64,000 bases of DNA from assembly GCF_001625195.1 (NCBI RefSeq), contig NC_054389.1, positions 3,840,520-3,904,519 of the forward strand, written 5' to 3'. Below are positions 15,101 to 60,600 of this stretch, piece after piece (position 1 is the first letter of the stretch; the number at the start of each line of letters is the position of its first letter). The notes under the pieces were generated by a model. It was not told where the DNA came from and made no database searches. It saw nothing but the letters and a program-made list of their open reading frames with translations. Made by a program: the position numbers and the translations under genes. Origin of the DNA: Drechmeria coniospora. Its lineage: Eukaryota; Ascomycota; Sordariomycetes; Hypocreales; Ophiocordycipitaceae.

Positions 15101-15841
15101 AAGCACAGTACTTGAGTGCACGCCCATGTACATCCACAGCCTACAGTACTTGAACTCAAGTAGCTGTGCACCTACCTGTACCTACTTGCATGTGTTCATA
15201 CCGTATCACGACATGTTTGAGACATGCAAGCATGCACAGTCTTGCGCGGATGCACATTTACTGCTGAGGAATCGCCGAGGAATCTCGCGATTTGACCTCG
15301 TACCACTCCCGCTGCAGGTGCAGTACTCGTACCTCGTAGGCCGACCAGTACTGTATGGCATACAAGCTTGATTCAACGTCGGACCAGGACGAAAGGATGA
15401 ATACGAACCATAACCCTGTCCGGTAGTCTCGGCCGTCTAGCCTCTACATACACCTACGTAGTGTTACTCGTACGTACTCTTCCAACTACTGTAAGTAAGT
15501 AAATACTGGACGAAATACAGCTCCATGTACGGAGTACTCCGTACAAGTACTTACTTAAGTACAGTACATCACTTGATCCAGTTTTATGTCAAGGCCTGCG
15601 CGCGGTCGTGCAGTACAATCACTTCCACCTGAGTGCAGTACAACAAGTACTTACTTGCATGTACTCCGTACGTAAGTACAAACAAATATATAAGTACAAG
15701 TTTGTGGTCAAATTCAAGACGAAAATCATAGCAGGATACAATTACTTACGTCGGCGATTTCTCCTTCATACCGTGCCGACTTCAAATTTCTTCTTCATCT
15801 CGTTTAAAAACATCAACGGCTGCGACAATCGCTCGTCCACC
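12133..15841. other. Gene-poor region of 3.7 kb with GTAC-word clusters and a minisatellite
   Basis: No convincing gene was seen. From about 13050 to 15690 the sequence is dominated by GTAC-type words (GTACTTAC, TACGGAGTAC, TACTCCGTAC, CAAGTACTT). It includes an exact TACGGAGTACTCCGTA palindrome at 15528-15543 and a 15-bp minisatellite at 13354-13590. Open frames here have repeat-like, Tyr/Cys/Thr-rich translations and are not coding. Confidence 0.6.
13354..13590. repeat. 15-bp minisatellite, unit ACACCCACAGTATTT
   Basis: About a dozen imperfect copies occur, several perfectly head-to-tail (13445-13495). Others are interrupted by TACGGAGTAC or TACTCCGTAC words. Degenerate units carry GAGTATT or GAACTTA instead of CAGTATTT. 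The array lies in a gene-free tract. Confidence 0.9.
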
Positions 15842-16207
15842 ATGAGGCCTTCGATATTGCTGGGAATTGTTCCGCTCGTTCTTGGTGCCGAACTCAAACT
15901 CAAACTCGACTGCTCCGATACTGGAAACCAGAATGTCAAGATTGAGCCAGACTTTCTGCAGAACATGTTCTCTTTCATCGCACCGCTCGCACCGCTCCAA
16001 TCGGAGGCATGGTGCAAGCACGAGAATGCCTGCAACAGAGAGCTTAACACGTACTCTTGTCCGCTGGATAGGCCCGATCCCTGCATGGTGCCTCGTGGAT
16101 GTTCTGGGGGCTTCATATCTACTACCTGCCGGGTCCCGCGCAAATGCCACGAAAGGATCAAACTCAAGGCAAGACCGGAGAAGCCAACATCACCGGCGGC
16201 GAAGTAG
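15842..16207 (+). CDS. Small secreted cysteine-rich protein (candidate effector), 121 aa
   Basis: The predicted protein starts with a short hydrophobic signal peptide (MRPSILLGIVPLVLGA, likely cleavage after Ala16). About 105 mature residues with eight cysteines follow, which would allow four disulfides. Cysteines fall in LDC, WCKHENAC, YSC, DPC, RGC, TTC and RKC contexts. The C terminus is Lys/Pro-rich. The ATG at 15842 is chosen over an in-frame ATG at 15608 because it has a CACC context and starts the signal peptide. No known domain is recognised. Size, Cys density and isolation in repeat-rich, gene-poor DNA fit a secreted effector or antimicrobial-like protein; that role is inference. An additional 3' exon cannot be excluded. 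Confidence 0.6.
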   Translation: MRPSILLGIVPLVLGAELKLKLDCSDTGNQNVKIEPDFLQNMFSFIAPLAPLQSEAWCKHENACNRELNTYSCPLDRPDPCMVPRGCSGGFISTTCRVPRKCHERIKLKARPEKPTSPAAK

Positions 16208-24078: not shown

Positions 24079-25212
24079 GTCTCGGGTCGGCTTGCCTCTT
24101 ATATATTCCTTGCGGCGTCAGAGTTTTTTTTTCGTCGCCGACACGTTGCGGGGTGGAGGGCGCAACGTGGGTGTAAGTAAGTAGGTGTAGTGCAGCAGGC
24201 GTAATGGTACATGTACTCCGTACGAAGTAAATACTTGCTTTGCTGGATCACCCGGCATGGGGCTTGAGGGGTTCTCGACACTCGACGTCAAATGACAGGC
24301 GCGCAGCCGTCAGGCCCACGGCGGGATTTCGGCGAGTTGAGGAGGAAATGGGCAGGGCATACGGAGCAGGATGGTGATGCATAGAAGTCCCATACGGAGT
24401 ATTCCGTACTTGTACACGATGTATTATACGCTTACACCCAAGGACAGTGCCTACCCGTACATGTACACTATTACACGTGCATGTCTACTGTAAATAATCA
24501 AGCAGTCTTGGATGGGTATTCGTCCGCTTGCGTTGCCAGCACGGGTTGGCTAGCAATAATAGGTTTGACTTCCTTGTGCTGCGGCAGTAAGACTTGCAGT
24601 GTCTACCTACTCATACTGTGCGGAGGGAGTACGGAATACTTGGGGAGTAGGTTGCCTATCGAGCAAGAAAAGCCGGGCATGCAAGTTGGACAAATCTCTT
24701 CTCATCTCTACCCGTTTCGTCATCGATATTAAGTATGTGCAACCTATTCTCCTCTTTTTTGCCTTTTCCCCCCCCAAATTGTTGAATCGCGTCCTCGGCG
24801 GTCGATTACATGGGACAAACTCATCCTTCACGGGGGAGTTTTGGTACCGAGTTTTGGCAAATGCAGCACCATGTACGGAGTACTCCGTAACACAATGTAC
24901 TGTAGAATCATACAACCACTTGCATACTACATTCGACACCCACTGATGCAAGGAACGGCGAGCTCGCGACGACCGTCAATGAATCTTGACCAAGGCGACA
25001 TGAAGGGGTGTTCAACTCCCCTTGGCAATTTGGAATCGGATTTTGCCATGTCCAAGCCCGCGTCGGCCAACTTCTACCCCACTTCTCATGCCTTTGCTGG
25101 GATGGGCTTCGTTGGCCGCAGTCCACCTCACGATATCTGCTCGCAGCCAGTTGTCAGCCTTTCGCACTCCGCCCTGTCTCGGACTGCTTCTGCCGGCGTC
25201 AAAATGAGCCAC
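24079..25212. other. Intergenic region downstream of the homeodomain gene
   Basis: Scattered GTAC words include an exact TACGGAGTACTCCGTA at 24874-24889. No gene was recognised. The 24960-25212 segment is GC-richer than its surroundings and may belong to the duplicated relic that follows. Confidence 0.45.
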
Positions 25213-25277
25213 ACGTCAGCCTCGTTTGCGCCCGCGCCGGCTACGCCAGACTTTGTCGGTTCGTAGCACGCCGCTCT
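25213..25277 (+). pseudogene. Decayed partial copy of the homeodomain/zinc-finger gene
   Basis: These 65 bp align without gaps to 22597-22661 inside the homeodomain/C2H2 gene. I count 51 identical positions of 65, and about nine of the 14 differences are transitions. The encoded peptide SASFAPAPATPDFVGS parallels SASFAPELPLPGFVGS in the same frame. The Gln codon CAG after it has become TAG. Flanking similarity was not established by eye, so the extent of the copy is uncertain. Confidence 0.55.
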
Positions 25278-26873
25278 ATGGTTGCTAGAGTACAGTACTT
25301 GTGCACGATCCACATTGCACGCAATGATGAACTGCTGGTAGAGAACAAACTTGCTCATGTATTGTGCACATGCTAGGTAGGTGACATGCTAGGTAGGTGT
25401 GAGCAGTACCGTGGTCGGCAGACGTCTTGGTGTTTGGCCACACCCTAGTTCTAGGAGCAACGTCAAGTGGTTGTGGACGCCATCTTCCGCTTGGATGCTG
25501 CCACTTTCAGATTTGAGAACCGACTTTTTTAACTAGCATTTTCAATATTGGTGTGCTGTATGCATATGAATGAAATCCGACGACGGACGAGTACCTGGGG
25601 GTAGTAGATTTAGTGTAATACTTGGAGCGCCTTCTACAAATGTTAATACTAGGAGGTATTACCTTAGTACTGCCTAGTAGTACCTAGTGTGCAACATGGC
25701 TGGCGCTGGTGCCGCTACGCTCTGTGCTGTAGTGTGCGGATATCTGGGAGATACAGTACGGAGTACTTTGACCTCATCTCCCAAGAAGGGTCTCGTACTG
25801 TACTAGTAATTACGGAGTACTCCGTACTTGCTTGTAAACACGCACAAGCACTTACAGTATATGTACAAGTACTCCGTATGTGCACAAACAGTAATTGGCC
25901 CGCCTTAGTTCCTACCTACTACATGTACTACAACTAAGTACATGTGCAACGACTACAGACAGTACTATACCAGGTACTAGGTACCTAGGTAATATCACAT
26001 AAATGATGCAATCCGGATACAAGTATTTCTTCCTTCAGAACTCTCGCTGCCTGTATTATTCCACTGGCTAGGTACTAGGTACCTATCAGTACCCACTAAT
26101 ACCACTAGGTCGGTGCCTACTAGGCTACCTACCTAGTAGTAAGCAGTGGTCAGCCAAACCACCAGTGACGTACGGAGTACAGTACACCTACCAAGTAATA
26201 CAAGAGAAAACAACACGACGAGGATTGAAACCCAACGTACGCCGTACGGAGCGCAGCGTAGTAATAGGTGAACAGGTAGAATGGACGCTGCATTGGAAAG
26301 TGTCCAGTACCTACCATAGTAACCCTAGTTATTTCTCGGTGAACAGAATGGGCAGGAACTGATGGTGTGCAAGAGAAGCCTCCCGCCTGAAACGACGTCG
26401 AACATGCTACGCAAAATGAACGTGGTTGATTCTTCAACATGTTGCACGACAATGCACAACACTTCTTCGCATCCACCGTCGTTTGATCCAAGAACGCAAA
26501 TATGCGTTCGAATGAACTGACGACGCGGACTGGCTTCTTCCTGCTAGTGCTGACATCGCCGAGGGCCGGAATGCGTGCGCGAGGTCCAGGGTAAGTCGGA
26601 CGTGCCAAGCCAAGGCGAGCACCAAGGGAGCGAAGCTCGTCCGACAACGTGTCTACGACAAGCCATGACCATTCCCTCCGCCAACCACAGCCCACGGTTG
26701 ACGTACGCGCCATCCATTCTCCCACGCACCCCGTCCGTCACAGAGCGAGGCGGCAAGCTTCCGCAGGGCAAAGGCACTCTCGGTCGGCAAGCATCGATTG
26801 AGAAGCAACCGACAACAACAATACACCGAGGAATCGCCTGGCCGGCCGTCGGTCCCAACAGACGATAGCGAGG
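25278..26873. other. Repeat-rich intergenic region upstream of CHS5
   Basis: The region holds a direct repeat of CATGCTAGGTAGGTG (25369-25403) and an exact TACGGAGTACTCCGTA palindrome (25811-25826). A dense cluster of CTAGGTA/TACCTAG words runs from 25620 to 26150. From about 26540 the sequence becomes GC-richer and is probably the CHS5 promoter. No gene was recognised. Confidence 0.5.
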
Positions 26874-28198
26874 ATGCTCGTCTCCCTCACCGTCGGCAAG
26901 GTCGACGCCGGCGTCACCGTCCTCCTGACGCCCGACAAGCGCCTGGTACCTACCTACCCGCCGACCTGCCCATCTTTCCGCCTGCGTGCCTGCCCGCCTG
27001 CCTACCTGCCTGCCCGGACGAGGAGTGGCGAGACGATTTTGCTGACGCGAGGGCCGCCTAGATCGAGTTCCCATCCATCCTCCTGCCGCCCAACATCTCG
27101 TCCGGAAGCATCGTCGACATCACCGTCTCGCAAAACTCGAACAAGGAGACGGCCGAGGAGCAAAAGTTCCGTGCGCTGCAGGACCGAATCTTCTCCTCCT
27201 TTGGCGCCTCGGCGCCGGCGACGCCCCAGCTGCGCTGCCGCAACGCGACCCAGACGTCGGTGGTGCTCGAGTGGGACCCCATCGTGCTCGCCACCGCCGA
27301 CATCATGTCCCTGAGCCTCTACCGCAACGGCCAGAAGGCGGGAAACATCCCGCGTCCGCTGCAGATGCACAGCACCAAGATCAGCGGCCTCGCCGTCGAC
27401 ACCGAGTACAGCTTCCACCTCGTCCTCCGCACGAGCGCCGGCACCCGCCAGAGCGAAAAGGTGACGGTGCGGACCCACAAGATGACGGACCTCAGCGGCG
27501 TCACCATCACGACGGGCATACTGCCCGCCGCCGTCAAGGAGCACGTCGCCCAGGCGGTCGAGCGCATCGGCGCCAAGATTGTCGACGGCGTCCGCATCGA
27601 CACGACGCACTTTGTCACGACCGAGGGCAGGGGCACCGCCTGGGAAAAGGCCGTCGAGACCAACATTCCGGTCGTGCGGCCCGAGTGGGTGGACGCGTGC
27701 GAGAAGAACGGCAGGATCCTCGGCGTCACCAAATTCTACCTCGACGCCATGCGGCCCGGACCCCCGCACGAGGGCCACCTGGCAACACCGGTGCGGTCGA
27801 GGGGGTCCGGACGCGAGTCGCGCGCCGACGAGGCCGACGAGGGCGCCAAGTCCCCCGGAGGAGCCGGAGCCCAGGCCGGAGCCAAGGCCGGCGGCGGCGA
27901 GGGCAAGGACCGAGGCCAGGACGAGGGGGGCGACGGCGAAGAGCAAGGTGCGACGCCGGAGCCCGAGTCGGAGCCGACCACCAAGCACACCCTTCCCGAG
28001 GAGCAAAAGATGCGGCTCGAGGAAAAGGAGGAGCACAAGGTGGCCATGCGACCGAAGAGAAGTTCACCCGAGCGGCCGGACGAGCATCATGGGCGCAGCG
28101 ACGACGACGACGACGGAGATGGGCATGACGGCGGCGGCGAGGAAAAGGAGGACGACGCGGCCAAGGATGGATCGTCGTTTCAAGAGGTCGAGCTGTAG
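26874..28198 (+). CDS. CHS5: Chs5, exomer core subunit (chitin synthase export), 402 aa
   Basis: Chs5 scaffolds the exomer coat at the trans-Golgi, which exports chitin synthase III and other cargo to the surface. Exons are 26874-26945 and 27062-28198. The 116-bp GT-AG intron restores LLTPDKRL-IEFPSILLPP. The N terminus (SLTVGKVDAGVTVLLTP) is the conserved Arf1/adaptor-dimerisation segment. An FN3 domain spans about 79-164 (NATQTSVVLEWDPI, TEYSFHLVLRTSAG). A BRCT domain spans about 167-253 (GAKIVDGVRIDTTHFVTTEG, VVRPEWVDACEKNGRI). The charged, low-complexity tail is rich in E, D, K and G and ends FQEVEL. The tail is shorter than in yeast (671 aa), which is usual in filamentous fungi. The gene is convergent with the downstream dehydrogenase. 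Confidence 0.93.
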
Positions 28199-28362
28199 AG
28201 GGAGTGGGGGCCTAGACTTGTTCTGTATTCTGTGCGTGTACAGTACTCGTGCGCGCTTCTGCCGTAGGCACAAAAGGCCCGCTGTTCCCCCCGACCCCCC
28301 GTTTCCCGTTTCCCCGATTCCCCATTTCCCCATGGCCGGCCGGATGGACCTTGGAACCTCGG

Positions 28363-28430: not shown

Positions 28431-28440
28431 CGACCCCCCT

Positions 28441-29313: not shown

Positions 29314-31140
29314 CGGAAAGTGACGCGTGGCCGGCGACTCGCGCGTGCGTCGGTGACAGCGTTGCGGACAACGAAGACGGTGAGGGACGGGAGAGCTAAT
29401 GAAGGGCAGATGCCGGCGGTGAAGGGCTTGCCACTGTACGAAGCCGACATCACAGCCGGGAAAGAGTGTTGGTGGCGAGCGATGAATTCATTGACGTCAT
29501 AATCGCCGTTGGTTACAACAAGCAGGTAGCAGTACGAAGAGCGTTGGGACTCAAGCTTCGGTACCTGAACTAGTAAGTACTACTCCGTACCTATGAATAA
29601 TACTGCTAGGACGGAGTAAAACCTGCCTGTAACTACAGGTGGTTGTACTGGTACTGTGCCTAGTAGGCACTTGGAAGTACAATAAGCCGGGAGTACTTAC
29701 AAGTAGGTACGTGCCTACGGAGTACAGTACAAGTACACATTGTAAGTACTCGTCGCTGGGCATAACCCTTTGACAAGGTGTGGCGCCAAGTGTACAACTA
29801 AAACTTCACTGTAAGTATTTTGTCGTGCAGTACGGAGTACATGTGCGACTACTCCGTAATTACTCCGTGCTACGGAGTAGTCGTGATACACCTACACTGA
29901 CTGTAGCACCGCACCGCCACAAACACTTATTGAACATGTACTTACTTGTAGTACAGGAGCTTGGCAACTAAGTAGGTGTTTTTGCGCACATCCGTAGCGA
30001 CAATGACGATGAGATGCCTGTCCGGAGTCCTCCGTGGGTGTCCATGTAAAAGTATGCGTGAACCGTTCAGCTAACATGACTGCATTTACCATCGGTACGT
30101 GGCGCTGTGCATACATCCAGGCAGATATCTGTTAAACCATTCGAATAGTCGACAAGGCTTTCAGGCCACTGGGCGGCCTGGGCGTGCTTGTCTTTACAGT
30201 ATTCATCTAGTACGGAGTAATTACCAAAGTACGGGAAAGTTTAGTACTGGTATTACTTACTCCGTGCTCCGTACTTGTAGTAATAATCGCTTGTTACAGT
30301 ACTTACAGTCCACGAGTAGGTGGACAGGTACTAATAGAGGCAGGTACAGTACTTGTATTGTTTGCCAATGTAACAGTCCAGGACCAATTCATGGCATTAA
30401 AAGCCCTGGATTGTACTTACTGAAGTATAAGTATGTATATACTAAGTAAGTACACAACTACTTACATGTACACAATATTACAGTGGGACGTTGTTTGCCC
30501 GTGCAGCTCCAAAGGCCTTGGCACACATCTCTCGGATTAGTTGGTGTACGGAGTATTGCTGTAGGGCCAAAAGACAGAAGCTCCTGCAAGCACCTATTGC
30601 ACCCACAGTTACAAGCAAGCACTCACTGTAGCCTGTGCTTCAGCAAGCATATACTTAACTGCTTCGGCCTCGCGCCGTTTCGTGGAGCGAGTAGTAATAA
30701 TGATTCCGCACGCAAGTACACCATCCGGTGACGGGAGCCGCGCTTTGATGAATGCAGTCTGTTCTCAAACTATGGTACTACGAGCAGTATTACTTGCTCT
30801 ACCAGTGCTCCAGGCGATACTACCCAAAGCCCGTATAGGCAACGAACACTAGAATTTCTCCGTCACGCCAAGAGTGTTCGTCGTCGTCTCCGGTCGTCGA
30901 GCTGACGGGTCAGCACAACGAGCACGAGACATTGACCCCCCTCAGCACAACGCGGCCTCTCCTTTGCCGTCGGCATTCATTCACTTTCGAATCGGTCGCG
31001 CATCTCGCCCGAAACTCCTTTGACGCTCTCGGTTGTCTCTCTTCCTCGTCGTCAGTGCCCTCCTCTCAGGTCCGCTGCTGATTCGAGGTTCACCCGCCGC
31101 GAGGGGAGGGTAGCAACGAGCTTCGGTCACTCGCGCTCTC

Positions 31141-31520
31141 TCTCTCTCACTCCCTCACTCCCTCACTCACTCACTCACTCCCTCCCTCCCTCACTCACTC
31201 ACTCACTCACTCACTCACTCACTCACTCACTCACTCACTCACTCGATCACTCGCTCACTCACTCACCCCCTCATTTACTCACTCACTTACTCACTTTCTC
31301 ACTTACTCATTTACTCACTCACTCACTCACTTACTCATTTACTCACTCACTCACTCACTCGCTCACTCACTCATTCACTCACTCGCTCGCTCACTCATTC
31401 ACTCACTCACTCACTCACGTAGGAATTAGCACGCCCTCACTCACCCACCCGCCCACTCATTCACTCGCTCAACTCACCGCCTCACCCACTCACTCATCCG
31501 CTCAACCACTCACGCACCCG
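31141..31520. repeat. Long imperfect (ACTC)n microsatellite
   Basis: About 380 bp are built almost entirely of CTCA tetranucleotides with occasional CTCC, TTTA or CTCG variants. It lies about 440 bp upstream of the likely RdRP start codon. The pyrimidine strand is the coding strand of the downstream gene. Confidence 0.95.
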
Positions 31521-31849
31521 CCGATTCACTCGCTCGTTCTCGTTGCACCGACTTCATCGACCGCCTGCCTTGTTCCGTCAACGAGTGCATGCGCAGAAAG
31601 GCCATTTCCCGCAAGTCACGACATACGCTGCCGTGACTGTTTCTTTTCGTTTCTCCCCCTTCCTCCCTCGACTCCCCGCGGCTCTCTTGGTACCTTTTCT
31701 TCGCCTTCCATTCGTCCTGGAATTGCCCCCTTCTCGGCACCTGGCTGACTGCCTCAGGCCTTGCCGATTCTTCACCGCATAGGACCCTCAGAACATGCTG
31801 GTGCTGCCGAATGGTACCTGCCACCGACGACACCTGGCACCTTCCCTTC

Positions 31850-31917
31850 CATCTCCCCTCCCCTTCAATCTCCCCTCCCCTTCCATCTCCCCTCCCCTTC
31901 CATCTCCCCTCCCCTTC
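31850..31917. repeat. 17-bp tandem repeat (CATCTCCCCTCCCCTTC)x4 in the RdRP leader
   Basis: Four 17-bp units lie between the in-frame ATGs at 31795 and 31957. They would be translated as Ser/Pro/Leu-rich sequence if the upstream ATG were used. Their pure CT character favours a 5' leader and the downstream start. Confidence 0.85.
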
Positions 31918-31956
31918 GACCTCGTCCGGCTGATTTTCCCTCTTCCTGCGAGCCAG

Positions 31957-34900
31957 ATGGCTGCCTCCTCCCGCCCACCGTCGGCTCCCGTCTCGCCTTC
32001 GACCTGCCGACACCCTCGCAAGCTTCACTCGCTTCGTTCGCCGGGAATGACATGCTCGGGTCCGCCGCCGTCCGTCAAGAGCCCAACCGACAAGCACCAG
32101 GGCCGGCTCCGCACGGCCTCTCCGAATCACGGCCATGGCAAGCGTCCGTCGAAACCGCCCGGCTCCCCGTCAACTTCGCGGCCGCCGCCCAAGAAGCCCT
32201 CGCCGCCGGGTCGTGCTGAGTGGGCCGAGTGGCGCCAGCTGACTCTCCGGCTGGACAACCTGCCGCTCGACGTCACCATGGGCCATCTCTGGAGCTGGTT
32301 CTCGTCCGAGGGGACCATCGTCTGGATGGACATGCAGGACGCCGCCAAGGGCACCCGCGGCACCATGTCCGCGCGCATCCGTTTCGAGCCTCCGCCGAGG
32401 AGGGCCTTCTGGGCCGCCGGCACCATCGTCGTCTGGCACCCCGACGTGCGCAATTATCCCGGCGGCCTCTTCCTCCGAGCCTCCGTCAGCCAGGAGGGCT
32501 CTCGCGGGTGGTTCGTCAGCGGAAGCGCGCCGCACCAGCGCCGGTACCCCGTCAAGATGACGGCTCCTCTGCGCCAGCTCGACTTTGGCACCCTGGTGGC
32601 GCCGGCGGCCATGATGGTGATAAAGTCCCTTCGCCCCTGCTCCGCCCCGGGCGTCGACATGGAGCTCGAGCTCGACGTCGGCCACCGGCGTCTCACCGTT
32701 CGCTTCCCCGTCGACACGAAATCCAAAGACGGCGAGGGCGTCCGCCAGTTCTGCTTCCGTGTGGACCTGTCGAGCGTCAAGAGGATGCACCAGTCGACCG
32801 AGGGCGGAAACGCCATCTGGATCCTTCCCCTCTCGCGCCCTCCCCACTACTACTGGAAGGTCGAGGACGTGGCGTCGACCTTTGGCGACGACGACAGGGC
32901 CTGGAGCTCCGGCGACCTCTGGTTTCGAGCCACCGACATCGTCCGGGACGCCGACGCGCCCATGAAGCACCCCGTCGCCGTCCACAGCGACATCGACGAC
33001 CCGGGCCGCATCGACATCGGTCGCTGGACCGCCTTCCGCCTCGTTCTCGAAGCCCACCCGACCCGGGGCCGCGTCGAGTCCCCCGACCTGCTCCTATCGG
33101 CCCTCGAGGACTTCAATGTCTCGGTCCGACGCTGCGCCGACTTCGAGCTGCGCCCGCCGGGCCCGAGCGTGTGGCACTACTTGAACCACCCACCCATTCC
33201 CCGGGGCCACCCGGCCTCGGCCCTGCTCGAGCTCTCCGCCGCGCCCGTCATTCACCTCGCCTTCGAGGTCCGATACCAGCTCGAGGTTTGCGTCTCGCGC
33301 GGCATCCTGAACGAGTACACCATGACGCCCGGCTTTCTGCGGAAGCTCGCTGCCCTCGAGACCCTCGACGCCACCCGTCGGCTCGAGTTCCTCGTCGACC
33401 AGAACGAAGCCGTCCACGACCCCATGGAGCTCTTCACCCACGCCGACGCCGAGGCCTACATGCCGAATCTTCGCATCCCTCACTACTGCGCCGTCGTCCG
33501 CAAGGTCGTCGTCACCCCGACGGCCGTTCGGTGCAACTCGCCGACGGTCGAGACGTCGAACCGCGTCATGCGCAAGTACAACCACATCCAGGATCGCTTC
33601 CTGCGCGTCCAGTTCATCGAGGAGGCCGAGCAGGGACGCATCGCCATCAACAGGAAGCAAAGCGACGACATCTGGAAGCGCATCCTCCGAACCCTCTACC
33701 AGGGCATCCGCATCGGCGACCGCGTCTACGAGTTCCTCGGCTTCGGCAGCTCCCAGCTCCGCCAGTGCGGTGTCTACTTTTACTGCCCGACCGAGCACAC
33801 CTCCTGCGACGACATCCGCCGCTGGATGGGAGAGTTCACCCACATCCGCGTCGTCGCCAAGTACGCCGCCCGCCTCGGCCAGTGCTTCTCCACGACGCGC
33901 GAGATACGCGGCATCTTCGAGCCGAGCGTCAAGACCATAGCCGACGTCGAGCGGGACGGCCACTGCTTCACCGACGGCGTCGGCAAGATCTCCCCGTTCC
34001 TCGCGAGCCTCATCATCGAGGAGATGACCCTCGACGTCTTCGACGAGCCGACGGCCTTTCAGTTCCGCATGGGCGGCTGCAAGGGCGTCTTGACCGTCAG
34101 CCCCGACGCCCAGGGCATGGAGGTGCACGTTCGACGGTCGCAGGAAAAGTTCAAGGCGGCCACCAACTGCCTCGAGGTGATCCGCTGCGCCAAGTGCTCG
34201 ACGGCGACGCTCAACCGGCAGACCATCACCATCCTCGAGTGCCTCGGCGTCCCGGTCGGCGCCTTCCAGCGCCTCCTGGACCGGCAGATACGAGAGTACC
34301 AGCAGGCTATGAGGAGCAACGCCGTCGCCGTCGGCCTGCTCACCAAGTTTGTCGACGAGAACCAGTCGACGCTGATCCTCGCCGAGCTGCTCAAGGCCGG
34401 CTTCCGGACCGACGACCTGCAGGAGCCCTTTGCGCTGAACCTCCTGAACCTCTGGAGGTCGTGGTCGCTGAAGCTCCTGAAGGAGAAGGCGCGCATCCAG
34501 GTCGAGGAGAGCGCCTTTGTCATCGGCTGCGTCGACGAGACGGGCACCCTCCGCGGGCACTCGGCCGCCACCGAAGGCTCTCCGGCCAAGGACGTCGACA
34601 GGCTGCCGCAGATCTTCCTCCAGCTCACCGACCCGGCGCGCCGGCACGACGGGACCGTCACCGTCGAGGGCACCTGCATCGTCGGCCGAAACCCATCTCT
34701 CCACCCGGGCGACATCCGCGTCGTGCAGGCCGTCGACTGCCCGGAGCTGCGCCACCTCAAGGACGTCGTCGTCTTTCCCTCGAAGGGCGACCGGCCGGTG
34801 CCGAACATGCTCTCGGGCGGCGACCTCGACGGCGACGACTTCTTCGTCATCTGGGACCCCACCCTGATGCCGAGAGAATGGAACTTCCCGCCCATGAGCT

Positions 34901-36276
34901 ACGCGCTGTCGAAGCCCCTGACGCTGTCGAGGGACGTCGAGGTCAACGACATTCGGGACTTTTTCGTCAAGTACTTGAAGAACGACGTGCTGCCGCTGAT
35001 CGCGACGTCGCACCTCGCCCTGTGCGACGAGTTCCCCGACGGACCCAAGTCGCAGACGTGTAGGTGCTCCCACGGCCGCGCCGCGAGCCGCCCTTTGCTA
35101 ACACGACGTCGCGCAGGCCTCCATCTCGCCGAGCTGCATTCCAAGGCCGTCGACTATCCCAAGACGGGCGACCCGGCCGATTGGAACACCAAGCTGCAGC
35201 CGAAGCGGTGGCCTCACTTTATGGAGAAGAAGAACTCGTACAGGTCGAAGCGGGCGCTGGGCGTCATCTACGACAAGGTCGTCAAGCAGACGATCCAGTT
35301 CCTGCCCGACTGGGAGCACGCTTTTGACCAGCGCATCACCGGCAGATTTGAGCTCGACGATGGCATGCTCGAGGAGGCGAGGCGGATCAAGCGGCAGTAC
35401 GACATGGCCGTCCGCCGCATCCTCACGCAGCACGACGTCGAGACCGAGTTCGAGCTCTACACGGGCTGGGCCATGTCCCGCCCGGCGATTGGAAGCGACT
35501 ACAAGCGACAGGAGGACCTCGGGCGCGAGTACGACGCGCTCAAGTCTCGGTTCCGCGACATGTGCTACGAGGCGGCCGGCGGCAGCGGAGTCAAGACGAT
35601 GGAAAGGTTCGTCGCAGCCATGTACACGGTCACGGAGCAAGAAATAAAAATTGCGCTGCTCGAACACCACGGCGGCGCAAGCGACGACGGCGGCAAGCAT
35701 GAGCATGGCAAGGGTGGCGGAGGCAGAGAGGGCAACGGGCGTGGTCCCCGTCATGAGCTCAAGGCAAAGTCGATGCCGCTCATCAGTTTCCCGTGGATAT
35801 TTCACCGCATCATGATCCGCATCGCGACAGGCGATGGGCAGAAGCCGACAAAGTCGCTGCTGGCCGCGGCGCAAAGGAAAACACGCGGCGCCGCATCGAT
35901 GCCGTCTCCCGGCCCCGCCAGCGGCGAAGTTCCCGGCAGAGCCGCGGCGCCGCCCCCTGCACGGGACGGTTGCGCCGATGCCTACGCGGGGTGCGCGTTC
36001 CTCGATGTCGATGACTTGCTGGGATTTCCCGTCGTCGATGACGGGGGCGAGAAGCTGGGGGCCACGCACGTGGATGACGGCGAAGACTTGTTGGAACTTG
36101 AGGAGCAGGGATGCGACGACGAGGGGCTGATGACGCAGAGCCGCGAAGATATCAGCTTTGACGACGACTCGGAACTGGACAAAGTAGAGGAGGTCGAGGT
36201 AGAGGCCGAGGAAGGGGAGAGCGGCCCTGCCATGGACCGGCTCGCTGCCCTGCTTGGATTCGACGATGACGATTGA
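31957..36276 (+). CDS. RNA-dependent RNA polymerase of RNA silencing (RdRP/SAD-1-like), 1420 aa
   Basis: This is a cellular eukaryotic RdRP that makes double-stranded RNA for Dicer. Exons are 31957-35059 and 35117-36276. The 57-bp intron has GTAGGT, a GCTAAC branch site and CAG ends; its length is a multiple of three and it has no stop, so it can be read through. Splicing gives SQTC-LHLAELHSKAVDY. An N-terminal RRM-like fold lies near residues 92-165 (LRLDNLPLDVTMGHLWSWFS). The catalytic double-psi barrel region includes SPTVETSNRVMRKYN, DGVGKISPF, FQFRMGGCKGVLTV and the metal-binding SGGDLDGDDFFVIWDP (D956-x-D-x-D). The tail is acidic and ends LLGFDDDD. The N-terminal RRM and overall size favour the SAD-1/Rdp1 branch over QDE-1. 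The start could also be 31795. Confidence 0.92.
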   Translation: MAASSRPPSAPVSPSTCRHPRKLHSLRSPGMTCSGPPPSVKSPTDKHQGRLRTASPNHGHGKRPSKPPGSPSTSRPPPKKPSPPGRAEWAEWRQLTLRLDNLPLDVTMGHLWSWFSSEGTIVWMDMQDAAKGTRGTMSARIRFEPPPRRAFWAAGTIVVWHPDVRNYPGGLFLRASVSQEGSRGWFVSGSAPHQRRYPVKMTAPLRQLDFGTLVAPAAMMVIKSLRPCSAPGVDMELELDVGHRRLTVRFPVDTKSKDGEGVRQFCFRVDLSSVKRMHQSTEGGNAIWILPLSRPPHYYWKVEDVASTFGDDDRAWSSGDLWFRATDIVRDADAPMKHPVAVHSDIDDPGRIDIGRWTAFRLVLEAHPTRGRVESPDLLLSALEDFNVSVRRCADFELRPPGPSVWHYLNHPPIPRGHPASALLELSAAPVIHLAFEVRYQLEVCVSRGILNEYTMTPGFLRKLAALETLDATRRLEFLVDQNEAVHDPMELFTHADAEAYMPNLRIPHYCAVVRKVVVTPTAVRCNSPTVETSNRVMRKYNHIQDRFLRVQFIEEAEQGRIAINRKQSDDIWKRILRTLYQGIRIGDRVYEFLGFGSSQLRQCGVYFYCPTEHTSCDDIRRWMGEFTHIRVVAKYAARLGQCFSTTREIRGIFEPSVKTIADVERDGHCFTDGVGKISPFLASLIIEEMTLDVFDEPTAFQFRMGGCKGVLTVSPDAQGMEVHVRRSQEKFKAATNCLEVIRCAKCSTATLNRQTITILECLGVPVGAFQRLLDRQIREYQQAMRSNAVAVGLLTKFVDENQSTLILAELLKAGFRTDDLQEPFALNLLNLWRSWSLKLLKEKARIQVEESAFVIGCVDETGTLRGHSAATEGSPAKDVDRLPQIFLQLTDPARRHDGTVTVEGTCIVGRNPSLHPGDIRVVQAVDCPELRHLKDVVVFPSKGDRPVPNMLSGGDLDGDDFFVIWDPTLMPREWNFPPMSYALSKPLTLSRDVEVNDIRDFFVKYLKNDVLPLIATSHLALCDEFPDGPKSQTCRCSHGRAASRPLLTRRRAGLHLAELHSKAVDYPKTGDPADWNTKLQPKRWPHFMEKKNSYRSKRALGVIYDKVVKQTIQFLPDWEHAFDQRITGRFELDDGMLEEARRIKRQYDMAVRRILTQHDVETEFELYTGWAMSRPAIGSDYKRQEDLGREYDALKSRFRDMCYEAAGGSGVKTMERFVAAMYTVTEQEIKIALLEHHGGASDDGGKHEHGKGGGGREGNGRGPRHELKAKSMPLISFPWIFHRIMIRIATGDGQKPTKSLLAAAQRKTRGAASMPSPGPASGEVPGRAAAPPPARDGCADAYAGCAFLDVDDLLGFPVVDDGGEKLGATHVDDGEDLLELEEQGCDDEGLMTQSREDISFDDDSELDKVEEVEVEAEEGESGPAMDRLAALLGFDDDD

Positions 36277-39663: not shown

Positions 39664-42600
39664 GCATTATCGTCGGCGAACCAAGCTCATCGACAGAGCA
39701 GGGTAGGAGGAGCGGTGCCATTAAACAGCCGTCGGCGTTCTCGCACCACCATGGGGCCTGTTGGTCGACCGGCCAGTGGAGCCACCAGGTGGGTGGTGCG
39801 AGCGACGGCGACAACGACGAACCGCACGACGGCTCACGGCTATACGAGAGCAGTGGGTAATACGGAGTCATCTGCCAAACCTTGTTCATGCAGCAGCATT
39901 CAGCCTTGTAGCGCTCCCGCAGAAGAAAGCACTGTACAGATGTGATATGGCCATCCGAGGCTCGGGGACTGGATGGATCTGAATCCCCGGCAAATGATAG
40001 GATACAAGTACGTATTAGTATTAATTACTTGGTGGTTGCATGCACCGCACTGCACATGCATTAATGAAGTGCAAAGTACGGAGTACTCCGTACATAGTAC
40101 ATGTACATGTACTTACGGCAGGTAATAGTAGGTAGGTACGGAGCACGGAGTATTGCTCAGATGCTCATTCCCGCCTTTATTTTGGTCGACGGCAGCTATA
40201 AATCCTTTGCCCCCTGTTCGCCGATCCCTCTGGCGGTCGAGGACGGAGGTACATGTACGTGCGTGCATGCTTCCATGTATTACCGACGTGCCACAAGTAG
40301 GCAAGTAGGCGTACTGGTACGTGCGAACCAGCGCTCGCCGGTACTCCGTACCCTGCACCTTCTTTCAATTACTGTAATACCAAGTACCTGCGTTTACAGC
40401 TAGCGCACCGCGCACTCCGCACGGAGCACAGCAAGCATGCCTGTATACGAGGAAACATGTGCTTCGCTGACAGGAGCACGCAGCTGCTTTCCGGCTGACG
40501 GCCGAGACCTGCGGAGACTAAGTACAGTCCAGCGACCGTCCCGTCTGCCGTTTCGAACCGTTGATGAATGGGAAGACGGCCTGTCCGGTGACCAAGATAA
40601 GCTTCTGGGTCCGGGCACTTTTGTCGGCTTGCGCCGCCGTCCTTGTGCGACCCTGTACGAGCACCAAGGGGAATACCGATGCAGTGGTATTGGTACTTGC
40701 GAGTGTGTCGTAGGACGAGCACATACGAATGCCGTGCCGCACAGTACTGTACGGAGAGTACTGTAAGTATTTACGCGCCAAACATCTCGCACGCGACGAG
40801 CCGAGCGTAGGGAGACACCTAAACTTGCTTTGTTTTTTTGGCCTTGCCATGTCGATCATGAGTCAGGACGTTTGCATGACATTGCCGGATTATGAGCAAC
40901 TCTCCATGATCTGACCTGATGGCTCTCGCAGGGGCGGCAACTCAACAGCTCGCAGAGTACACCCATGCAGGTACAGCAGGTGTGCCGCTAAAAATTGCAA
41001 TCGATTCAGACCACGACGTACAGTAATAATTAGCGAGGTTCAAAGCTTCCGCACAAGCACACCTACTGCTGCATTTTGACTCGAGGACTGTGCATGTAGG
41101 TGTACTTGTACAGAGTACGTCTACTAGGTACTCTTTCTCGACTGTGCCATTGCTTCGGCCAAGCACTTGTACAGTACTAGGCAGTATCATGACGGACGAC
41201 TCCCCAAGTGCGTACATATGTACACGTGCCACCATTCTCATGCAGGATGTCCCCGTGGAATTACTATTGGTGATGATCAGTAGTGCTCAAAGGTGTGTTG
41301 ATGGCTAGGAATCATTTCACATGCGCTTCCGTCGGCATCCCCCCCGCCCAGAGTCACGAGTACCTACAGTACATGGGACGCTTCTACGGTAAATGAAGCT
41401 GTTGGTTGGCAATACCTACTCGGTAGGTGATTTGTGCGGGCCACACCAATACCGAGTCGATCGTAGCCGACCAACCAACCTCCGCATGCAAGCACTGTAT
41501 AGGTAGTTATAATGCTAGCCCACAGCACCAACTCAACTACGCGTACGGAGTGCTGACTTAAGTACGCCTACATACCTAGTATACACCCACACATGTACTT
41601 GCAAGTGTACTTGTACTGTACTTACACGGACTTGAAGCAGGTATTCTAGTACGGAGTAATACTCCGCAAGTAAATTTCTCCGTACTTAGCTGGACAATGC
41701 GTACCTCTCTACTCCGTAGTTGTAGGTGTATTGATACTTGCAGGTAGGTGTATAGGTATACCCCTATTCCCTGCACAGAGTACTCCGTCCCCGGGACTGC
41801 AACCGACCGCCTGGTCGCGACATCGCCTTGCCGGAGAGAGCAACTGTGGCAGGAACTTTTCATCGCAGAGACGCGCGCCGCATGCCGATCTGCTCTCGTG
41901 GTCGCATCTACCCCAGATACTGACGGAACCATGTAAAGTCTGTCGTGTTGGTCGTCAGAACCTTGTCAATGTCGCACGCCGCATGGTTCGCCTGTCCTGC
42001 TGCCTCTGTGCAGGCAAGTATGCACCGTTGCCGTGCAAAGTACGGGGTACATAACATGTATGTGCACGATAAGTACTCCGTACTTGGGCACAAAAGAACC
42101 GCAACGAAAAGGAAGGCGCTATGAAAGGCGCCGTTCACAAAGGATCGCAGGCACGACCCACCGCGCCCTGATTCCCCCATGACCGACTGTGTTTTTTGAT
42201 TTTCGCCCCCCCCCCCAAAATTCACCACTCCAACGCAGCACCAACAAGCCGGATCGCTGGGAGATCGGATGCCACGTTTTTCGAATCTCCATCGCCCCAA
42301 TCGCAAGCTCGTTGCCTGTCTCGCTTTGGGGAACGGTGACAGCGTCTCACCTCCCACACCAGCAGATTGGCCAGCCAGCACGCCGACGACAAGGGAGGGC
42401 GGAGGAGGGCCATCCTTTGTCATGCTTCATCGAGCCAGAAGCCTAGCCGGATTTCTAGAAGCAAGCCGGTCTTATGCCTAGCGCATTTTTCCAAGGGGGA
42501 AATTTCTCTGACAGCTTTGCGAGGGCGGGCTCCGCAAGCCCGATGTCGGATGATTCACTATTTATGACTATTATTGCCACGCCCACATGAATGCTCGTAC

Positions 42601-48451: not shown

Positions 48452-49808
48452 TCAAGATGCGACGTCGATATTGAAGTCTGCATCCTCGCGGCAAGGCACC
48501 CAGCCAACTAGGGCCGCCACCCGAACGGCCGCTTTGACGGCCTCTCTCTCTGCCAGCAGTGTCCCGCCCTTGACGTCGCGGTATGTCGGCTGGCTTAGGG
48601 GATGCGCCATGGCGTCGTGACCGTCGAGCCGCCGAGCGAGATGTCGGGCCGCCCTCCACATCTGTCGCCTCGACATGTGACTAGCCCCTCGTTGGTCCGA
48701 CATCTTCCTTCCTTGCAGTACACCATTGATGATGGACTCTTCGACACCGGACAAGGACCAGGCCGCGGCAATGTTGCTGGCCGAGATTCCTTCAGCCGCC
48801 CGAGCCAGGACCGCCCGCCGCGAGAAGTCGAATTCCACCGTCGTAGCCTCCACCGCAAACGGCCTAAAGACGTAGCCCCCCCGCCAGGTTTTGCCGCGCA
48901 CGCTGCTCATGCGGCCGGTCTCGGAGAAGGCACGGGCGCATGCGACGGACGAGTACTGCGACTCGGGAAGCACAAGTGTATCGACGTAGGCGTTGGCCGG
49001 CTCGACGTAGAGTGCCGTGAGGGAGCAGAGGAGCGAGGTAGCCTGCTTCAGAGCGAGCTTGTCGGAGCAGGACTTGGAGAGGGTCGGCTGGGCGTCACCG
49101 CGAGCTGGTTTGCGGCGGACGATTCCAAGCTGGGAGAAGTCGGCGCGTCCGGGAAGAGGATCCGAGCCGTCGGGCAGCGGAATGATGCCGGAAGCTGGTC
49201 TCTGCCATGGTGAGGCGTCGGGTTGGACGGCCATGGTCAGTTCCATGCTTGCGTCGCCGCCTCGAGAGCCATGTCAGCGGTGAGGATGCCGACGGGAGAC
49301 AATAAAATATATCATACAGGGAGCCTCCGAGCAGTACATGTGAATCTTGACATTGTCTCTGATTCGGAACGGCGGCGTGCGTGGTTTCTCGTCGCTGGTA
49401 CCGCCATGAGGCGCCGTCTGAAGAAGACCAGAATGGGGCCTGTTCTCGATCAAGCTCGAGCAGTCGTCCAGCAGAAATCGATTCAGTGTCCTGATGGCCA
49501 GGATCTCCGCGTGCCAGTCGTGAAGTGCATTTCCATTCGATTCGGGAAGTTTACATGCTGGCAGACATTTCATGCCGGTCCTACAACGCAACTCAGAACA
49601 TACGCTCTCCATCGGGTCATCGTGTCCTTGTGGGCGGGGCATACGCGAGGGCCAAGCAAGTGAACCTTCCATCCACTTCCGCGACGATGCCGCTCAGGGG
49701 AACCCAGTCGTGGAGGCCATTGTCGCGGACGGCTGGCTTTCGCTTTGACGGTAGTTTACCAAATTGGGTTATGACAACCTGCGCGATGAGGTCTGCTCTT
49801 GTGATCAT
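48452..49808 (-). CDS. TAD1: tRNA-specific adenosine deaminase 1 (Tad1/ADAT1), 411 aa
   Basis: The enzyme deaminates A37 of tRNA-Ala to inosine. Exons on the minus strand are 49645-49808, 49318-49580 and 48452-49260. GT-AG introns of 64 and 57 bp restore CLALA-TGMKCLPACKLP and SEAPC-GDASMEL. Zinc and catalytic elements are HAEILAIR (His and proton-shuttle Glu), CSEAPCGD and the third zinc Cys in LSKSCSDKLALKQATSLL. Other family blocks are GRADFSQLGIVRRKPARGD, LVLPESQYSSVACARAF and GVLQGRKMSDQRGAS. The start at 49808 (MITRADLIAQVV) is chosen because homologues start just before this block; an in-frame ATG at 49886 exists. The gene is divergent from RPL24 across 433 bp. Confidence 0.92.
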
Positions 49809-51508: not shown

Positions 51509-52153
51509 CTACAGCTTGGCCAGAACAGCATCGGCGCCCGAATGCGTGATCAAACCCTTACCTTTGTCCAGGCCAGCGTAGACGACCTTGCCGTGGTCAA
51601 CGGCGATGGCGTATCGAGCGGTGCGCTCGCCATTGGTCCAGCCGATACTCTTGCTGAACTTGGCATCGCTGTCGGAGGCGAAGATCTAGCGATTGGTATT
51701 CTGTCAGCGTCTGGTATCGTAATTATAGGAATAGGAATGCAAGTCGCAAAGGGGGCCAGCTCACGAAGTAGTCGTCCTTGACGCCGTTTGCTTTGCACCA
51801 GCCAGACATGACATAGGCGTCATTGTAGGCGATGATGACGACCTGGTCGACACCCTTGGCCTTGAGGGCCGCCCTGTTACCGAGGTAGGACGGGAGGTGG
51901 GAGACGTGGCAGGTGGGAGTGAAGGCGCCAGGGACGGAGACGAGGACGACCTTTTTGTCCTTGAACTCTGCAGGTTCAGGAAGAGACGTAGCGTCTGTCA
52001 GCGAGGAGCGGTCGTCTGCAGAGGGGGACACGAACCTTTGCTCGCGTCGAAATTCTGGGCAACGCCGCAGGTTTTATCGTCTCCGGCCTCCTCGGCGGGG
52101 ATGTACGTGAATGCGACATCGTCGGGGAACGAGTCTCCGGCATTGAGAGGCAT
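51509..52153 (-). CDS. Peroxiredoxin of the PMP20/Asp f 3 (Prx5-like) type, 165 aa
   Basis: This thiol peroxidase reduces hydrogen peroxide and alkyl hydroperoxides. Exons on the minus strand are 52036-52153, 51765-51967 and 51509-51685. Introns of 68 and 79 bp have GT-AG ends and consistent phases. The peroxidatic Cys lies in VPGAFTPTCHVSHLP (PxxxTxxC motif), followed by the family block GVDQVVIIAYNDAYVMSGW. The third exon encodes FASDSDAKFSKSIGW and ends DAVLAKL. The start at 52153 (MPLNAGDSFP) matches homologues of about 168 residues. The C-terminal AKL resembles a PTS1 peroxisomal signal, as in PMP20-type members. Location is an inference from that tripeptide. Confidence 0.94.
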
Positions 52154-54523: not shown

Positions 54524-55962
54524 GGTGTCGTTTGCCTGTTGTCCTGGAGGTGTTGAGGAAAAGTCGAAAGCTGGCCGATACCGTTGCAACAGTGGGCAGG
54601 AAATCCCGGGCCACAACTTTTTGCCATTCGCCTAGCGTCAGCAGCGGGGGCTTTCATGCCCTATGTCAAGTCGGACAAATTTTCGCGAACGCACGTGGGG
54701 TGGCACGTGACTAGAAAACGCGCATTTAGCAGGATTACCTAAGTACTCCTAAGTAAGTACAGTACAGTACAGTACTTCCATACAGTACTTGTTCCGGTGC
54801 GGAGTATTAATACTTGAATATGTACTGTACTTAAGTAAGTACAGTACAGTATGCGTACAGCTCTATTACTTACTTCCAGTACTCCGTACTCCGTACTGTA
54901 TTCCGTATATCTGCTTAGTACTGACATTACAGTAGGTTCTTACGTATATGCTCCGTACTCCGTACTCCGTACAAATACAGTACAGTACAGGACAGTACTT
55001 AATTCACCCAGTACTTGCCCGTACTTGTACAGAAAAGTACGTACGGAGTACGGAGAACTGTATGGTAGTCACAGTAACAAAACCATTGATACTTGCTACC
55101 CACCTAATACTTGTACAGTGCTCCGTACGGAGTAAGTACTGTACTGTATTAATGCTTCGAATATGCTCTGCTCTCTTGTCACATGCAAACCTTGCGGCCC
55201 TCCACTTCACCGTTGGCCACTCCACCATTGGGTAATGGTGGGTGCGGCCCGTCCCAACAATCCCTTACTACCTACCTACTTACGGAGTACAGTACTCCTT
55301 ATTGCACCTACAGTTCCTACTGCACTCACTGCTATTCTCAGTGCTCGTATAGAGTAATTACTGTGCTTACACGTCGTATACAAGTGTGCATGCTAGTATA
55401 CGGAGGACTGACCATCGGTATTGTTGAGCTTCGTTGTCCAATGGCATGTGAAAACCTGTCTACCCCTGTCGCTTGCGCGCCACCGCCATATTGTCATGGC
55501 AGGGCAGAGTGATCATGAAAGCACGCAATGCCCAGCCTTTGGCAGCCTTCGATCGTCACTTGCTTCGTGATGGGGATGGATCAGGTTGCACGGCGTACAA
55601 GGTAGCGTAGAGTGCACAGTTCGTGCGCGTACGTGCAGCAATGAATTCATGAGAGGGGTATCAAATCAGGAGCTCGTGTTTCCTGTTCTCGGACCGACAG
55701 AAAGCCGAGGCAAAAAAGAACGCTTCTCGCTTCAAGAAAAAACCAGCTACTTGGAGGTAGGTGCACGATGGTCCCTCGCGGCGTGCTTGCCTGAGACGCT
55801 TCATCCTGCGGCTCTGGGTGAAGGATCCGAGATTTCGTCCCGGTCGTCCCATCCTGCCCTCCCTCGCCCTGGCTAAAGTCGGACGAACGGCGAGGTAGAT
55901 GCGAGGGGGAAGCTCGCGAGTCACGGTACAGATTGTCCGTCCAACCGTCGACCCTTTTCCTT
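54524..55962. other. Intergenic region RPS4 / telobox gene
   Basis: A dense GTAC-word cluster occupies 54730-55150 (AAGTACAGTACAGTAC, TACTCCGTACTCCGTAC and similar), with further copies to 55390. No gene was recognised. Confidence 0.5.
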
Positions 55963-57684: not shown

Positions 57685-60600
57685 GTTTGCGCAACCGACG
57701 ATGCCGGAAACTCAAGCGACAGCGCAGGGAGACGAAAACTGGACAGGGTGCAGGACCAGCAGACCGGCCAGGGCCGACATGTCCCCACGAGGCCGTGTCG
57801 AGTCTGACCAGCAGCGCAATGAAAGGAGGAGGGTCTGGCTCGGAACTGGCAGTGGTGACGGAGCCAGCGATGGGGCAAGAGCAAGAAAAGGAAGAGATGT
57901 GCGTGGTCGACGATGGTGCCGGTGCGTGGGAAGTGCTGGTTCTCGGCGTCCTCGAGGATGTCCTTGGATCTTGGAAGAAGGTGGTCAGCGGTGGTGCCCC
58001 ATCAAGTATATGTATCATAGGAGGTAGGGAGTACAAGTACGGAGTGCTGGTGCTGCATTACGGAGTAAGTACGGAGTACCGAGTACTGCAACGCAAGTAC
58101 CATGTTGTGCAGCACGGAGAACAAGTACAAGTACTTGCATGCAAAGAAGTGTACTTGCAGTACGGAGTACTGTACTGTACTCTGTCCAGAACGGAATATA
58201 CTTTGGTGCAGCAGTAAGTAGACTCCGTACTCCGTGCTTGGGGCAAAGGTATCGGTACGTAAGCTCCTTTACATACTTACGTACCAGGTACTTGCTTGGA
58301 TCTGCCGTGCCTCAGCTAGGTTGGTACGTACCTGACGGTGTGCCGCTAATTACTCACTTCCACTTAAGTATATGTACACGGTACCGGTGAAGTTGGGTAT
58401 CGGCGATTAGGCGGCCATCGCAGTACCAATAATACCGGGTACCTAGTAGTAATACCAGGTAATAATAGTTGCAAATGCATGTACAAGTACTTGTACCTAT
58501 TTACAACGTACAGTATTACTGTACTTACGTGTACGGAGTACTTACTTGGGTACGTGCATGGTACTACAGTACGGAGTACTCCGTACAGTATTTAATACTT
58601 AGGTTGGTAGGCGCGCATTAATATTGATTGTAAGTACGTAAGTAAGTACGGAGTAAGTATTCCGTACTGTACTGTACCTGTAGATGTACACGTAAGTACC
58701 TGTGCTTCCCTATGCCACTGGACGGGTCGGAACGGACATTCACGTGAAACCAGGCCTTCTCATCACATGTCTTTGGTCACCGTTCGTCCGGACTCCCTCG
58801 TACCCCGTACCTGCATGTACTGTACAGTACTGTATCTGTAAATGGGTTGTCTTTTCCGCTGTCCTTTGACCAGTCTTACTAATGGTTATTGCATTGTATG
58901 AGCAACTAGAAATTGTTGGGGCTTCGGGCTTCCCTTGCCACGTCAATCAACGGCATGCCAATGTTTGGTGCGCTTGCCAGTGCCAGCTGGGCACAAGGCA
59001 CCTACAATATGGGTGTCCGACCGAACACACGTAAGTACTTGCACAGGCACGAAGTGCGTAGAAAGGAATACCTACTGTCCAAGTAAGTGTACTGTACATG
59101 TACATGTACTCGTACTACACAGGCCCAATCCATCAAAGCAAACGTACTGGTACGTCCAAGTACATGTTAGTGGATGCGTATCCTGCAGCACATGTACTTG
59201 CAGTATTCCTCAACTCTGTTCCTATCTAGTAGTTGTCCACGAGTCTCGGCGAACACTGGAGTCCACCTCACTGTCCTGCTTGCGTCCTCTTTGGTGCTTT
59301 GCAAGCACCTGTACGTTGATTTGGGCACAGTTGGGCTGCCGTTGTGGTACCGCGCGCGGAGTGCCAGCTATCGGAGTTGAGTGACAGCCTCTACACTGCA
59401 CAGCCAGGGACGGAATGTTTTCACGTAGTAAGTTGGAAGGCAGCGACGCCAACAGGTCGCGGCTGCATCCGCATTCCCGTTGATTGATCACCGTGAGCAC
59501 CGTGAGACGGCGGCAGTCGATCGGATCATGCCATGCCAGCTACTTGCATGCATTACTTGCCGTCCGTCCGCCCGTCCTGTTGGGCGACAGCCATTACCCT
59601 GTACCTAGGACTGTAGACCCACCGAATGCTTGCTGCAGTTTATTAGTATACGAGTACAACTAAAGGTACATGATGTGACTTGGGTACCCAGACCTTGGTA
59701 GAGGTAATTAGTACTGTACTTGCTGTAAATGGACCTCGTGTGAAACAACACCTAGGTGTATCTGTCCCTGAACTGTACTGTAGGTACTGTACATGCACGC
59801 ACAGAGTACTACTTATGTTGGTGTGCTATAAGTGTGCATCAATAGCAAGCACATGCCATGCGAGAGCCGGCGATTGTATCCCCGGCTGCCGCTAAAGCTC
59901 CGACCCCGGTCGCTTCCAGAGCAGATGCCGTTCCGATCCTCATTTCCCTCACAAGTTAGTACGGAGTACGGAGCAAGTACACTCAAGTACAGTAAAAGTG
60001 GTATTTGAAGGTGCAGCACTCCGTACTCCGAATATTAATAATACTTACTCCGTACCTACGTCCATGTACTTGAATGTACCCATGTACGGAGTACTCCGTC
60101 CTCCGTCCTCCGTTCTCAAGTGCAGTGTTACAAGTAAGCACAAGCACACCGTACTGTACATATACATGTACAAGAAGCACTCCAGTGCTATTAGTGAATA
60201 ATACCGCTGTATCCGTACGGAGTAATAATATTCAATGTCCATCGACTTGACCTTGTTCTTTTCGCTTCCTCTCGGCTGTCCCGTCCGTGTTTGGGTCGAA
60301 CCCACCCCCTCCTTTTTCGTCGTCATAGCCTCAGCTCTGCCGTCCATCCCTCCTCGGGTGCTGTTCACCGACATCGTCGAGTCATTTCGCGGTCCGTCCA
60401 CATGGTTACCGAGCCTGTTATCCCCTCGCCCCCTCACTCCAAGTAAGTATTATTGGGGAATGAAGTAGTACATACTACATGGTATCAGAAATAAGGTGTA
60501 CACGTAGTACTGATGATCCAAGTGCAAGTACATGTGCTCTGTACGGAGCGCTCGCATGTGTATACCGAGTATTACAGTACAACTACAGTACTGTACATGC

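Follow-up and report, generated by a model that had tools for sequence, protein, structure and literature searches.

The palindrome and its surroundings

The DNA analysed here is a 64-kb stretch of the genome of the worm-killing ascomycete Drechmeria coniospora (contig NC_054389.1, positions 3,840,520 to 3,904,519 of the forward strand; hereafter the window). It carries, among others, a CHS5-like gene, an OPT transporter gene and a Myb-domain gene, and the DNA between its genes contains a 16-bp palindrome, TACGGAGTACTCCGTA (Table 1). Exact matching finds five copies in the window, all of them where a preliminary description of this DNA had placed them. The one-mismatch copy of that description (TACGGAGTACTCCGTC) exists as well, one base to the right of the reported 60084–60099, and a second one-mismatch copy, TACGGAGTATTCCGTA, had been overlooked. 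The impression that the copies exceed chance is well founded, with seven matches at two mismatches or fewer where 100 dinucleotide shuffles average 0.01, and the window is palindrome-rich, with 5 exact copies per 64 kb against ~0.7 expected at the genome mean.

The palindrome is made of two half-sites, TACGGAGTA, that share the dinucleotide TA. The dozens of half-sites said to surround it amount to 62 in the window, where 0.38 are expected and the largest count in any shuffle is 4, and none of the 62 lies within the 22,950 bp of coding-scoring DNA. A tandem array of ~13 copies of a 15-bp TACACCCACAGTATT-like unit at 13375–13575 adjoins one of the half-site clusters.

Table 1. Palindromes, half-site clusters and an associated gene in the window
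Feature	Position	Strand	Context or source
Exact palindrome TACGGAGTACTCCGTA	15528–15543		~300 bp before an in-frame ATG (read by eye); open frame ends at 16207
One-mismatch palindrome TACGGAGTATTCCGTA	24393–24408		Mismatch search
Exact palindrome	24874–24889		~1.95 kb upstream of coding segment holding CHS5-like gene
Exact palindrome	25811–25826		~1.0 kb upstream of coding segment holding CHS5-like gene
Exact palindrome	40077–40092		~3.2 kb upstream of coding segment holding OPT transporter
Exact palindrome	58570–58585		~0.6 kb upstream of coding segment with Myb-domain gene, minus strand
One-mismatch palindrome TACGGAGTACTCCGTC	60085–60100		Mismatch search
CHS5-like gene frame (CHS5_N, fn3_2, BRCT)	27062–28195	+	Downstream of the copies at 24393, 24874 and 25811
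Three half-sites head to tail, 7-bp spacing	13328–13350	+	Half-site search
Two head-to-tail half-site pairs (54880–54895, 54956–54971)	54880–54971	-	Half-site search
Cluster of 3 half-sites	7819–8142		Half-site search
Cluster of 9 half-sites, triple included	13328–14596		Half-site search
Cluster of 3 half-sites, one palindrome included	15528–15670		Half-site search
Cluster of 9 half-sites, two exact palindromes included	24214–26179		Half-site search
Cluster of 7 half-sites	29581–30555		Half-site search
Cluster of 6 half-sites, one palindrome included	40077–42082		Half-site search
Cluster of 7 half-sites	54880–55289		Half-site search
Cluster of 11 half-sites, one exact and one near palindrome	58059–60224		Half-site search

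The repeated unit

The comparison of genome-wide counts with a Markov background that the preliminary description had proposed was carried out. The palindrome occurs in 363 exact copies (reversed control, 0) versus 0.0038 predicted by an order-1 model and 0.03–0.04 by an order-2 model when scaled to the non-coding genome, and so it is far more frequent than dinucleotide composition predicts. The half-site occurs 16,386 times (8152 and 8234 by strand) and its reversed control 196 times (100 and 96); these genome-wide repeat counts may be lower bounds. Extrapolation from 23 evenly sampled loci (230 kb) gives 18,414 half-sites, consistent with the count. The annotated gene number of D. coniospora is 8,281 (PMC4792172), which gives about 2 half-sites per gene.

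The sample used for the other analyses comprises 304 kb, namely the window and 24 loci of 10 kb. Locus L024 was chosen for its four palindromes, and loci L011 and L025 are AT-rich. All loci were included in the counts of variants, word edges and coding overlap; L011 and L025 were left out of the tests of GTAC dyads, word distribution, clustering and flank preference (284 kb), and L011, L024 and L025 out of the Markov and k-mer enrichment models, the former of which were trained on non-coding DNA. L011 and L025 (GC content 0.31) contain no half-site and are perhaps affected by repeat-induced point mutation or heterochromatic.

Two half-sites can overlap only via TA, at a spacing of 7 bp. Genome-wide, head-to-tail pairs (1059; 513 and 546 by strand), the palindrome (363) and the inverse palindrome TACTCCGTACGGAGTA (227) depart from the neutral ratio of 2:1:1 (chi-square 156), the tandem being over-represented and the inverse under-represented, and overlapping pairs account for 3,298 half-sites at most, 20% of the 16,386. 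An order-7 Markov model trained on 21 loci with the window left out predicts 248 palindromes, 95 inverse palindromes and 709 tandem pairs, corresponding to excesses of 1.5-fold, 2.4-fold and 1.5-fold, respectively. Training on the window and the 21 loci raises these predictions to 380, 180 and 870, a result that is partly circular because the window is palindrome-rich. With the 21 loci, the order-6 excesses are 3.8-fold, 2.9-fold and 3.7-fold, and the order-8 predictions are 434, 112 and 1,220. Thus there is some extra adjacency of half-sites, yet the palindrome has no advantage over the tandem, and the half-site with its GTA/GTAC junction accounts for most of it. The palindrome was therefore rejected as the unit, since all three overlap arrangements are present and the 1.5-fold excess is the same for palindrome and tandem; the palindrome family, as it was first described, gives way to the half-site.

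The sampled half-sites have edges that define a word of 11 bp. G is found at position -1 in 74% and C at position +9 in 69% of them, and biases outside the 11 bp are mild (up to 47%). This 11-mer, GTACTCCGTAC, occurs in 8,489 exact copies genome-wide (4288 and 4201 by strand; control, 15 and 6). With simple repeats left out, TACTCCGTA is the top-ranked 9-mer of sampled non-coding DNA, seen 191 times or 40 times its order-3 expectation, and among the 14,365 places of the form GTACNNNGTAC in the genome, TCC/GGA stands between the GTACs in 8,489 (59%). The enrichment of the word is real, very strong and genome-wide. The 18-mer GTACGGAGTACTCCGTAC gives no match in viral contigs and matches prokaryote genomes 3 times; anecdotally, TACTCCGTAC is present in primers of Aspergillus flavus, A. 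oryzae, A. carbonarius and Coccidioides.

Location relative to genes

Coding DNA in the sample was called with a home-made codon hidden Markov model (HMM), which yields 73 segments and misses coding stretches of less than 250 bp as well as genes of odd codon use. None of the 219 sampled half-sites falls in predicted coding DNA (93,458 of 304,000 bp). The binomial p would be ~1e-35 for independent sites, but the sites are clustered and independence fails. No frame of the 9-mer, read directly, has a complete stop codon, indicating that its absence from predicted coding DNA is not a trivial stop-codon effect.

Convergent gaps contain no half-site in 10.4 kb (15 gaps), whereas divergent and codirectional gaps contain 110 in 82.4 kb (37 gaps); a crude first gene call and the HMM call agree on the zero. 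Within 500 bp of a gene, the 30.0 kb nearest a 5' end hold 27 sites and the 21.1 kb nearest a 3' end hold 4 (Fisher p 9e-4, with clumped sites), which is suggestive of a preference for 5' flanks. Half-sites face either way relative to the downstream gene with no bias (51 versus 59), as expected for binding to double-stranded DNA.

Other features of the window include a TCAC tetranucleotide array of 370 bp (31127–31496) shortly before an RNA-dependent RNA polymerase frame (31783–36276) of which residues 150–1150 are 98% identical to a D. coniospora protein, overlapping minus-strand frames with PALP (pyridoxal-phosphate enzyme) and peptidase M20 domains that are possibly one fused gene (10373–12186), and a minus-strand frame with an adenosine-deaminase (editase) domain (48455–49273). 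The window gives 0 matches to Rfam families at the gathering score, and no transfer RNAs were found in it.

Identity with the SomA motif

The 11-mer GTACTCCGTAC of D. coniospora is letter for letter the motif published for SomA of Aspergillus fumigatus, where MEME analysis of peaks from chromatin immunoprecipitation sequencing (ChIP-seq) gave it in 119 of 476 (PMC7667024). In an electrophoretic mobility shift assay (EMSA), mutation of the site blocked the interaction (PMC7667024), and a later EMSA shows SomA at meaB (PMC10900910). SomA interacts physically with PtaB (PMC4631450) and regulates cell-wall genes in A. fumigatus (PMC7667024), and the Flo8/Som1/SomA family is described as activated by the cyclic AMP–protein kinase A pathway. 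The palindromes at 24874 and 25811 lie upstream of the CHS5-like gene, a single anecdote in relation to such cell-wall targets.

The genome encodes a SomA orthologue and a PtaB-like protein. A stretch of yeast Flo8, used as a query, matches one place in the genome (contig C2:7462041, E 4.3e-4), the frames of which, read by eye, have a LisH/LUFS-like N-terminus. When searched in turn, these frames are 98% identical to a D. coniospora protein, RJ55_01524, and 81% identical to SOM1 of Purpureocillium, and RJ55_01524 is the SomA orthologue. Pfam LisH gave no match to its frame at E 0.01, and the five other places found by LisH searches were set aside, being read by eye as GID8-like, RanBPM-like, TAF5-like and other LisH proteins. 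A protein with LIM_bind, the domain of PtaB, is encoded at C2:8475702 (E 1.3e-61) and, judged by its domain alone, would be the PtaB orthologue. In an alignment of 32 SomA orthologues, out of at least 120 listed, ~30 residues at about 410–439 of the D. coniospora protein P0121 (SNHALQDYQ...RQEQ) are nearly invariant; this block, the longest of its kind in the alignment, could be a DNA- or partner-contact helix.

The D. coniospora and A. fumigatus systems share the 11-mer, its non-coding location, and a SomA-type factor accompanied by a PtaB-like protein. They differ in that 8,489 exact 11-mers are counted here and 119 of 476 ChIP peaks there, which are unlike quantities, and in that the D. coniospora system is known from sequence; the overlapping palindromic and tandem pairs seen here have no description in the accessible text of the A. 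fumigatus reports (PMC7667024, PMC10900910). The N-terminus and the identity to SOM1 also relate the orthologue to the LUFS-domain regulators Flo8 and Som1 of yeasts and Magnaporthe oryzae, as far as the accessible text describes them (PMC4631450). Among the literature matches listed, neither a DNA motif reported for Som1 in Hypocreales or Magnaporthe nor an earlier report of the abundance of the word in Hypocreales was found.

Interpretation of the word

Binding sites of an abundant factor, a foldback element and a mutational or replication process had been proposed as origins of the palindrome. Support is strongest for the first, since adding the flanking G and C to the half-site gives exactly the motif published for SomA; the second lacks support. 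In the favoured explanation, GTACTCCGTAC would be the binding site of a SomA/Som1/Flo8-type regulator, and the palindrome would be an overlapping pair of recognition words GTACGGAGTAC, the same word on the other strand, sharing one GTAC. The SomA–PtaB complex of D. coniospora would occupy these words outside coding sequence, for the most part probably in 5' flanks, and would switch genes for adhesion, the cell wall and spores, while the palindrome would allow two complexes to sit side by side. The word and its counts, its absence from predicted coding DNA of the sample, the factor genes and the match to the published motif are observed; binding in D. coniospora, function and any cooperative reading of the palindrome are inferred. 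That recognition by SomA is what the word is for in D. coniospora has about an even chance of being right. The palindrome itself is mainly a by-product of overlapping copies of the SomA-type motif. A density of about 2 half-sites per gene means that many copies have to be weak sites, decaying sites or decoys, and many are probably decoys.

Several observations weigh against this explanation. The 16,386 half-sites are far beyond the need of one factor, and variants outnumber exact copies: 491 one-mismatch versus 363 exact palindromes and 15,363 one-mismatch versus 8,489 exact 11-mers (total control, 686) genome-wide, and, in the 304-kb sample and uncorrected for background, 265 one-off versus 219 exact 9-mers, with transitions accounting for 146 of the 265. 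Such an excess of variants resembles copies that decay under loose constraint. Further words bounded by GTAC (GTACTGTAC, GTACATGTAC and GTACTTGTAC) are enriched and distributed alike, and SomA leaves them unexplained. There are 0 half-sites in L032, L033 and L036, the 3-kb loci that surround the gene segments of SomA and PtaB. Under strict tests the 5' preference gives p 0.058 (length-matched permutation) and p 0.12 (rotation, codirectional gaps), neither significant, and so a promoter preference is not claimed.

The mutational or replication process is the main rival. A set of GTAC-bounded words would spread in intergenic DNA by short duplications and by template switching at GTAC microhomology and would then decay, being neutral or selfish, with factor binding incidental; this is somewhat less likely than recognition by SomA. 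In its favour, more than one word is bounded by GTAC in the 284 kb, where GTAC-A/T-GTAC makes up 129 of 137 dyads with one spacer nucleotide, GTAC-AA/TT-GTAC 53 and GTAC-AT-GTAC 45 of 154 with two, and GTAC-GGA/TCC-GTAC 113 of 190 with three. Such turnover also agrees with the predominance of head-to-tail overlaps (1059), with one-off copies that are at least as numerous as exact ones and rich in transitions, with the clustering of half-sites within ~200 bp, and with palindrome flanks that share more short words than random non-coding pieces do (26 versus 2 matches). Palindromes of 10–12 bp without GTAC are mildly over-represented (1.3- to 1.65-fold), pointing the same way; a general process producing any palindrome was nevertheless rejected as weak, the excess without GTAC being 1.2- to 1.65-fold at 8–12 bp. 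On the other hand, the spacer is constrained, one trinucleotide accounting for 59% of the three-nucleotide dyads genome-wide, the word has sharp 11-bp edges, it is absent from predicted coding DNA although its 9-mer frames hold no complete stop, and it is identical to the motif of SomA, which binds it in vitro.

The words GTACTGTAC, GTACATGTAC and GTACTTGTAC have 1, 0 and 0 copies in predicted coding DNA and 1, 0 and 0 in convergent gaps. Since they are distributed like the SomA-type word, either several factors read GTAC dyads or a copying process makes the whole lexicon. It is conceivable, if rather unlikely, that the non-coding DNA is a small lexicon (GTAC-T-GTAC, GTAC-TT-GTAC, GTAC-AT-GTAC and GTAC-TCC-GTAC) chaining by shared GTAC, arising through a process of copying or read by complexes that recognise GTAC, in which thousands of SomA-type sites would form a distributed docking or buffering layer and not single switches. 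TACTAGGTA and TAGGTACCT are also enriched in non-coding DNA.

A different factor, for example a zinc-cluster dimer, could read the word. Every exact palindrome contains CGG-N6-CCG, the spacing of Ppr1/UaY-type zinc-cluster factors. Yet zinc-cluster sites are not known to include GTAC edges, and the tandem form (CGG-N4-CGG), the palindrome and the inverse occur at 1059:363:227, a mixture in which no one dimer geometry is prominent. Of the 16,386 half-sites, at least 80% lie outside overlapping pairs; CGG-N6-CCG is thus common to both systems, but here the non-overlapping half-site is usual and has no one fixed spacing, unlike Zn2Cys6 dimer sites, and the sites described for AtrR of A. fumigatus are CGG-N12-CCG-like. 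Such a reader is improbable. A foldback or miniature inverted-repeat element, of which the copies would be remnants, is very improbable: the palindrome is a perfect inverted repeat in hundreds of copies, but the half-sites lie mostly outside pairs, as just noted, and the 300-bp flanks of 18 of the 363 copies contain no common carrier element and only 26 short scattered matches (the 25 listed being 16–53 bp long, at unrelated offsets and in both orientations), in keeping with the earlier remark that no carrier element is visible.

Implications

The SomA motif itself has already been published for A. fumigatus (PMC7667024), and the D. coniospora word is the identical 11-mer. Should the sites prove real, the 33-Mb genome would confront a master regulator of adhesion and the cell wall with ~16,000 candidates, and how such a factor chooses its targets and why its sites persist become testable. 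If they are neutral, motif finders applied to fungal ChIP peaks may return a word that is already abundant in intergenic DNA, and genome-matched backgrounds would be called for. Either way, the ease with which the word is counted makes Drechmeria a good organism for separating the regulatory from the neutral reading.

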